This document shows, in pieces, positions 14,855 through 15,445 of a stretch of 46,984 nucleotides of DNA. A program made the translations under genes and the position numbers. The stretch covers positions 1 through 46,984 of the forward strand of contig JAOAGQ010000037.1 of the NCBI GenBank assembly GCA_026415675.1, written 5' to 3'. Under the pieces are notes generated by a model. It had not been told where the DNA came from, ran no database searches, and was given only the letters and a program-made list of their open reading frames with translations. The DNA is from Syntrophorhabdaceae bacterium (GTDB lineage: Bacteria > Desulfobacterota > Syntrophorhabdia > Syntrophorhabdales > Syntrophorhabdaceae). Position 1 is the first letter of the stretch. Each line of letters opens with the position of its first letter.

Positions 14855-15088
14855 CTATCTAATTGTTATGACTTCTTTTAGTTCGGGGAGTTTTTCTTTC
14901 AGTAGTTTATCTGCCCACAGACCGAGGGCAAAATCGCCGCATCAATGGAGTTTACCGCCTATGAGCTTTACGGTTAGGACTCTCCTTTCGCTATCGAATC
15001 CGATGAACTCCACTATCCCCTCTGCAAGCTCATCCAATTTTGGGTTTATATTCTGGATGGTATTTTTTATCTCCTCTTCCCTTAACAT
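14855..15088 (-). CDS. NifU-like selenoprotein candidate with in-frame TGA (Sec49)
   Basis: Read from ATG 15088 to TAG 14855, the frame gives 77 residues if the single TGA at 14944-14942 is decoded as selenocysteine. The product follows the NifU C-terminal fold: an N-terminal helix (EEEIKNTIQNINPKLDELA), strands IVEFIGFD and VLTVKLIGG, then the ligand loop and a helix ending KLLKEKLPELKEVITI. NifU has CxxC in the loop. Here the first Cys is Lys47 and the second is Sec49, followed directly by Cys50 (LHUCGDF). Coding similarity continues smoothly on both sides of the TGA, unlike a decayed gene, and a SECIS-like hairpin follows it. It lies 20 bases after the zinc-ribbon gene, with a weak AGGG ribosome site. 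A nonsense mutation is the alternative. Confidence 0.75.
14910..14932 (-). promoter_or_regulatory. Bacterial SECIS element candidate
   Basis: On the minus strand TTTGCCC (14932-14926) pairs with GGGCAGA (14916-14910) in a 7-bp stem with one G-U pair. A U-U mismatch and a C-G pair close a GGUCU apical loop (14923-14919). The loop GG begins 18 bases after the TGA. The E. coli fdhF SECIS, as I know it, has a GGUCU-containing loop at the same 18-base distance. This is the site where SelB would bind the mRNA. Confidence 0.72.
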
Positions 15089-15108: not shown

Positions 15109-15285
15109 TTACCTCATTATAAACCTCGGATTAAAGGTGTAGTCCTCATCATCGAGGAACTCTTCATAGGTTATCTCCTTTGCCACCATGCTGCTTCCAC
15201 ATTCCGGGCAAAATATATCCACCTTTTCTCCTGAAAGAAACACAAAACCACACAGGCTGCATACGTATTCATCGGGTATCCTCAA
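15109..15285 (-). CDS. Small zinc-ribbon/rubredoxin-like protein
   Basis: A 58-residue protein starts at TTG 15285, six to seven bases behind AGGAGG. A longer ATG start at 15336 would lack a ribosome site and lie deep inside the preceding gene. Four Cys form two knuckles, CSLCG (Cys9, Cys12) and CPECG (Cys26, Cys29), 13 residues apart. This fits a zinc ribbon or a rubredoxin-like iron site. The acidic tail (EEFLDDEDYTFNPRF) has no known role. It is the middle gene of a three-gene minus-strand operon: six-Cys protein, zinc ribbon, NifU-like selenoprotein. A redox or metal-handling role is inference. Confidence 0.75.
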   Translation of the reverse strand: MRIPDEYVCSLCGFVFLSGEKVDIFCPECGSSMVAKEITYEEFLDDEDYTFNPRFIMR

Positions 15286-15445
15286 TTTTTTTCCTCCTTT
15301 TTTTCCTGCAAACCGGATCCTCCATGCACATGGCATTGATTATACATTGACTCCTGAACTGACAGTAATCATCCGGATGGGGGCAGGGATTTTTATCTAT
15401 ATCTATCTGTTCCTGATACTTCTGGCATAGGTATTTTTTTTCCAT
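15269..15445 (-). CDS. 58-residue Cys-rich protein, first gene of the selenoprotein operon
   Basis: From ATG 15445 to TGA 15271-15269 the frame codes 58 residues with six Cys (7, 21, 28, 34, 40, 46) at regular 5-6 residue spacing in the second half, including CPHPDDYCQF and CIINAMCMEDPVC. A basic tail (RKKRRKK) follows. I do not recognise the family; the pattern suggests a metal or Fe-S site. It overlaps the start of the zinc-ribbon gene by 17 bases, and the run of A and G coding its basic tail doubles as that gene's ribosome site. The promoter at 15461-15489 implies a leader of only about 9 bases, and there is no clear ribosome site of its own. Confidence 0.65.
   Translation of the reverse strand: MEKKYLCQKYQEQIDIDKNPCPHPDDYCQFRSQCIINAMCMEDPVCRKKRRKKIEDTR

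Follow-up and report, generated by a model that had tools for sequence, protein, structure and literature searches.

A NifU-like gene with a conserved in-frame UGA probably encodes a new selenoprotein form of the Nfu domain in Syntrophorhabdaceae and related bacteria

The window (the whole 46,984-nt stretch of DNA analysed here, from a Syntrophorhabdaceae genome) encodes on its minus strand a NifU-like protein, NifU-Sec, whose frame is crossed by TGA at codon 49. Comparative sequence evidence makes the decoding of this UGA as selenocysteine (Sec) near-conclusive, and the joint reading, Sec decoding in a member of the NifU-fold family, is highly likely. SelB and tRNA-Sec would read UGA49 as Sec under the direction of a SECIS hairpin lying immediately downstream, inside the CDS. 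The product would be a single-domain Nfu fold in which a vicinal Sec-Cys pair, or Cys-Sec in a sister group, stands in place of the CxxC motif. The gene and its predicted recoding signal occupy the following positions.

15088-14855, minus strand: CDS of the putative selenoprotein NifU-Sec (77 aa, Sec at residue 49), running from an ATG at 15088 to a TAG stop at 14857-14855 (from translation with TGA as U, 20 aligned homologues and an AlphaFold2 model)
14944-14942, minus strand: in-frame TGA, read as Sec49 and followed by Cys50; aligned to the second CxxC Cys of Nfu
14913..14929, minus strand: predicted SECIS core GCCC-U-C-GGUCU-G-U-GGGC, with a 4-bp stem, a U.U mismatch, a C-G closing pair and a GGUCU loop
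14910..14932, minus strand: predicted SECIS hairpin including the outer stem, 7 bp in the window genome; the outer three pairs are not conserved

Translated with TGA as U, the frame contains a single TGA and reads MLREEEIKNTIQNINPKLDELAEGIVEFIGFDSERRVLTVKLIGGKLH-U-CGDFALGLWADKLLKEKLPELKEVITIR*. NifU-Sec is a stand-alone protein of 77 aa, not an added NifU domain. It matches Pfam NifU (PF01106) over its whole length with 24.2 bits, a little short of the curated cut-off of 27, and all 18 family members tested matched the same profile (best E 7.8e-9). A first-pass annotation of this DNA had placed the TGA at the second CxxC Cys of a NifU-type domain, with Lys at the first Cys and a Cys directly after Sec. 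Alignment of the family profile with the Nfu structures 2z51 and 1xhj bears this out, U49 falling in the column of the second CxxC Cys and K46 in that of the first, and the translated frame places Cys50 next to Sec49 as a vicinal pair. The CxxC cluster-binding motif is absent from the Sec clade, being replaced by R/K-L-H-U-C-G or R-L-C-U-x-G.

A search of the frame against 148 related genomes retrieved 17 homologues with 46-58% identity, each with exactly one TGA, and extending the scan to 395 genomes across the phylum brought in two further homologues with TGA at the same codon. Counting the window gene and its 19 intact relatives, which are spread over five GTDB families, TGA occupies the identical codon in 20 of 20 intact Sec-clade genes. 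Within the order of the window genome, the gene is carried by 17 of 46 genomes and 12 of 19 genera. One conserved peptide pattern, run against 84,980 species genomes, retrieved 13 relatives that coincided with loci already known to bear TGA; where named, these belong to Deltaproteobacteria-type MAGs (Syntrophorhabdus, Syntrophorhabdaceae, Syntrophaceae and Syntrophobacterales). No relative with Cys in place of Sec was found within the clade: ordinary Nfu has Cys at this site, and the sole non-Sec member of the clade has neither residue. A phage or other mobile origin was rejected, the scan of viral contigs having given no relative. Two incomplete copies were also observed, a damaged second-form gene in G296 (L090/L098, G296:C70:3954-4133) and an N-terminal remnant alone in G209 (L091, G209:C35:5013-5123), each attributable to MAG error or to gene decay in that family.

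The relatives looked at keep the TGA, which answers two doubts attached to the first-pass annotation, that homologues might lack any Cys or Sec at this site and that the TGA might be a sequencing error; because they keep it, the TGA is not such an error. More broadly, it is extremely unlikely that the UGA is a true stop, an error or the mark of a decaying gene, with no full-length product. That reading draws on the lack of the full frame in the mechanical ORF list, the damaged frame in G296 and the N-terminal piece in G209. It is opposed by the TGA shared among 20 intact genomes, by purifying selection on both sides of it, by a length difference of exactly 3 nt between the two forms of the gene and by the frozen synonymous sites of the predicted SECIS element, described below.

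Conservation of the protein persists downstream of the TGA, as the earlier remark that the frame runs on with family-like sequence had implied. Upstream of the TGA, the mean pairwise divergence among the 17 main-form genes at codon positions 1/2/3 is 0.35/0.25/0.66 (third position 0.658), and downstream of the predicted SECIS element it is 0.29/0.15/0.62 (third position 0.623). Over codons +5 to +8, where the element is predicted, it falls to 0.22/0.00/0.00. The fixed codons are Ala GCC, then Leu CTC, Ser/Gly RGT and Leu YTG, while the codons of nearby invariant Gly, Leu and Pro residues are free to change. Given local codon use, the chance of this codon set is about 0.004-0.006 per sequence; these chances do not multiply freely across relatives, owing to kinship, and the genes span five families. 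Frozen third positions between diverging flanks are the pattern expected where a coding sequence also carries an RNA signal, here a putative SECIS element.

Across relatives, the conserved RNA reads GCCC-U-C-RGUYU-G-U-GGGY. The loop begins 18 nt past the UGA in the window gene, where the first-pass annotation had placed a GGUCU loop, and 21 nt past it in the second form; it has a G near its start, and 18 nt lies inside the 16-37 nt range given for bacterial SECIS apical loops (PMC10778597). The proposed SECIS element is thereby conserved in relatives, with loop RGUYU and frozen synonymous sites. The 7-bp stem first described is present in the window, but the conserved stem is shorter: among the 20 sequences, only the four inner pairs and the closing C-G are always kept, and the outer three pairs occur in 10-13 of them. 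Folded alone, the window hairpin has a minimum free energy no better than that of shuffled sequences (z = 0.01). Changes on both sides were seen at one outer stem pair only and were not significant against the shuffle or slide control, and Rfam gave no match within the window. Support for the predicted SECIS element comes from sequence freezing and position, not from covariation.

The window genome (2.56 Mb, 99% complete) encodes the machinery that Sec decoding would need, with SelA (566 bits), SelB (387 bits), tRNA-Sec (72 bits) and SelD (369 bits), so that the check for selA, selB, selC and selD proposed at first pass found all four. Its SelD is itself interrupted by TGA at the usual catalytic Sec site. 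Genome-wide reassignment of UGA to an amino acid other than Sec is vanishingly improbable: of the 18 homologue genes examined, seven end at an ordinary TGA stop, SelA, SelB and tRNA-Sec are present, and the TGA of SelD sits where Sec is usual. SelB was not found in three of 18 TGA-bearing genomes, two of which have tRNA-Sec. With SelB found in 128 of the 148 genomes sampled, its co-occurrence with the gene is weak evidence. In one genome (G004, L026; 96% complete), the gene bears TGA and neither SelB nor tRNA-Sec was found, absences that are probably assembly gaps.

The AlphaFold2 model, built with 14 family sequences, has a pLDDT of 89.9 and a pTM of 0.78. Foldseek against the PDB returned Nfu/NifU domains as all five best matches. 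With VIA-align, the model aligned to 2z51 over 73 residues at 2.3 A (Z 10.1), clear of unrelated rows, and to 1th5 and 2m5o with Z of 8.2 and 7.9. Cation-diffusion-facilitator domains, at Z of about 7, were rejected as homologues, since alpha/beta arrangements commonly reach such scores. The predicted fold is that of an Nfu domain (helix-strand-strand-helix-strand). In the tree, the Sec clade stands apart from ordinary Nfu with 100/100 support; the alignment comprised 76 columns, with row NFU_L083 left out, and inner branching is weak because the columns are so few. A separate Nfu with a normal CxxC is also encoded in the window genome (L092), and the scaffold role is therefore already filled.

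Two forms of the protein can be distinguished. The main form (17 genes) has the motif GGR/KL-H/M/T/L-U-C-G-x-x-ALSLW, and the second, a sister group (G127, G255 and G276), has GGRLC-U-(G/A)-GPD-(V/A)-AL(S/G)LW, with one additional codon after the site (an in-frame insertion of exactly 3 nt) and the same SECIS core. The vicinal Cys thus changes side around a fixed Sec, from H-U-C-G in the main form to C-U-x-GPD in the second, and every Sec member has a Cys adjoining Sec. A tandem paralogue in G003 (L052/L109, G003:C102:3112-3324), which adjoins an intact Sec copy and falls inside the Sec clade, lacks both Sec and Cys at this position (FRGILIANG), and its SECIS codons have drifted. It is possibly a heterodimer partner.

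Two small frames lie upstream of the gene in the window.

15109..15285, minus strand: 58-aa zinc-ribbon protein with a TTG start after AGGAGG, stopping 20 nt before the NifU-Sec ATG
15269..15445, minus strand: possible small Cys-rich ORF further upstream, overlapping the zinc-ribbon start, with no family match

The zinc-ribbon ORF, queried without its first residues, gave weak zinc-ribbon matches below cut-offs. It is probably an operon gene upstream of NifU-Sec; its place next to NifU-Sec is not conserved in relatives. No Fe-S gene was found next door in the window or in many members of family f1 whose neighbourhoods were examined, and no conserved operon was found across the main form, its context elsewhere in f1 being variable. 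An AmmeMemoRadiSam radical-SAM gene immediately precedes NifU-Sec in three genomes of family f3, and a B12-binding radical-SAM gene lies upstream of it in two genomes of family f2. The second form has the gene order SufC-SufB-DUF166-FMN reductase-NifUSec in G127; the same order was assigned by sequence similarity in G296, and FMN reductase-NifUSec was found in G255. The FMN reductase (L097) is NADPH-dependent and fused to a low-molecular-weight phosphatase (LMWPc)/arsenate-reductase-like domain. The DUF166 protein, encoded 1-4 kb upstream of NifU-Sec (L097/L098; G127 and G296), is related, with a score below threshold, to DfsP (NF041372), a known DUF166 selenoprotein.

Our best guess at function, which falls somewhat short of an even chance, is that NifU-Sec handles Fe-S (or soft-metal) clusters through its Sec-Cys ligand pair. 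In a dimer, two Sec and two Cys would sit at the bridging-cluster site of Nfu, and the protein might be a carrier, a repair factor or an acceptor for Fe-S clusters, or alternatively for Fe or a different soft metal. Its clients may be SufB-type assembly and Fe-S enzymes sensitive to oxygen or metals, such as radical SAM proteins, and selenolates could give quicker exchange or easier recovery after oxidation. Counting against this reading are the absence of the CxxC that defines cluster binding in Nfu, the separate normal Nfu of the window genome and the inconstant gene context. The first-pass suggestion of a redox or metal/selenium-handling protein rather than a scaffold needs adjusting, as the SufCB context of the second form points toward Fe-S biology. 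A fuller version of the Fe-S reading is possible but rather doubtful: an Fe-S carrier whose cluster or Fe is natively held by Sec, forming an obligate selenoprotein branch within Nfu that is ancestral to several lineages of anaerobes of the Desulfobacterota type, with no Cys version and the Sec-Cys order flipped once, that would serve SUF and radical-SAM proteins.

The main rival, a redox role, is possible though somewhat unlikely. The Sec-Cys pair would form a reversible selenenylsulfide on an Nfu-derived scaffold, fed with electrons by a flavin reductase and holding no metal cluster, as happens with the adjacent Cys and Sec of mammalian thioredoxin reductase, which form such a bond. A Cys beside Sec in every Sec member, despite the switch of side, fits a self-reacting pair, and the gene of the second form immediately follows that of the NADPH-dependent FMN reductase with its phosphatase/arsenate-reductase-like domain. 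However, both the fold and the precise position of the pair belong to a cluster-binding domain, SufC and SufB occur in the same operons, and none of the main-form neighbourhoods examined contains the flavin reductase. A binder of soft metals, metalloids or selenium (Hg, As, Cu or selenide), with the pair as chelator or carrier, appears improbable. CU motifs do occur in the metal-related selenoproteins MbdU, SaoL and SaoC of the 2026 inventory (PMC13188914), one member (L052) adjoins a TonB receptor/periplasmic binding protein and one group lies beside the arsenate-reductase-like domain, but across the family the gene is not consistently associated with transport or resistance functions, and the fold is specifically Nfu.

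The suspicion at first pass that no family of this form is established agrees with the sources searched. No NifU/Nfu family is among the 119 prokaryotic selenoprotein families inventoried in May 2026 (PMC13188914), and NCBIfam release 20 (June 2026) gave no match for the window protein, some relatives weakly matching NifU/NfuA. No relevant paper on NifU/Nfu with selenocysteine was found in a literature scope without preprints and most subscription papers, so an earlier report is conceivable. We rate NifU-Sec, which is absent from these sources, as a novel selenoprotein family and, at the level of the domain, as a new form of Nfu. Cys homologues are numerous for nearly all selenoproteins (PMC12013277), and a clade with no Cys form is unusual against that pattern. 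The family would be a well-supported prokaryotic selenoprotein family on an Fe-S-assembly fold, linking selenium to Fe-S biology, and the reversal of U-C to C-U around an unchanged Sec offers a natural experiment on the role of a vicinal Sec-Cys pair. Small genes split by UGA are easily truncated or missed in annotation; the motif GGRLHUCG...ALSLW with GCCCTCRGTYTGTGGG offers a direct means of finding them.

Among known systems, the HesB-like selenoprotein (TIGR01911, in the 2026 inventory) is likewise a selenoprotein form of an Fe-S-assembly-type family, the A-type carriers, but it has another fold and a UxGP motif, is unrelated and is set apart by its description in the inventory. The vicinal CU/UC selenoproteins (the CopZ-like (2Fe-2S)-binding GxUC/CU protein, MbdU, SaoL and HgcA) share the placement of Sec beside Cys, and several are linked to metals, but they are different families, and NifU-Sec has no sequence match in NCBIfam. 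The Nfu/NifU C-terminal domain (PF01106; 2z51, 1th5 and 2m5o) is alike in fold, in length and in the placement of Sec49 at the second CxxC Cys, with 23-29% identity to the three structures in structural alignments; it differs from NifU-Sec in that the latter has Arg/Lys at the first CxxC Cys and a vicinal Sec-Cys pair and forms a separate clade. In E. coli fdhF, the SECIS element is a hairpin within the reading frame, 3' of the UGA, and its apical loop is GGUCU. The predicted element of the window shares this arrangement 3' of its UGA and the same loop, but has a U.U mismatch and a GCCC/GGGC lower stem, and the loop of its relatives is RGUYU.
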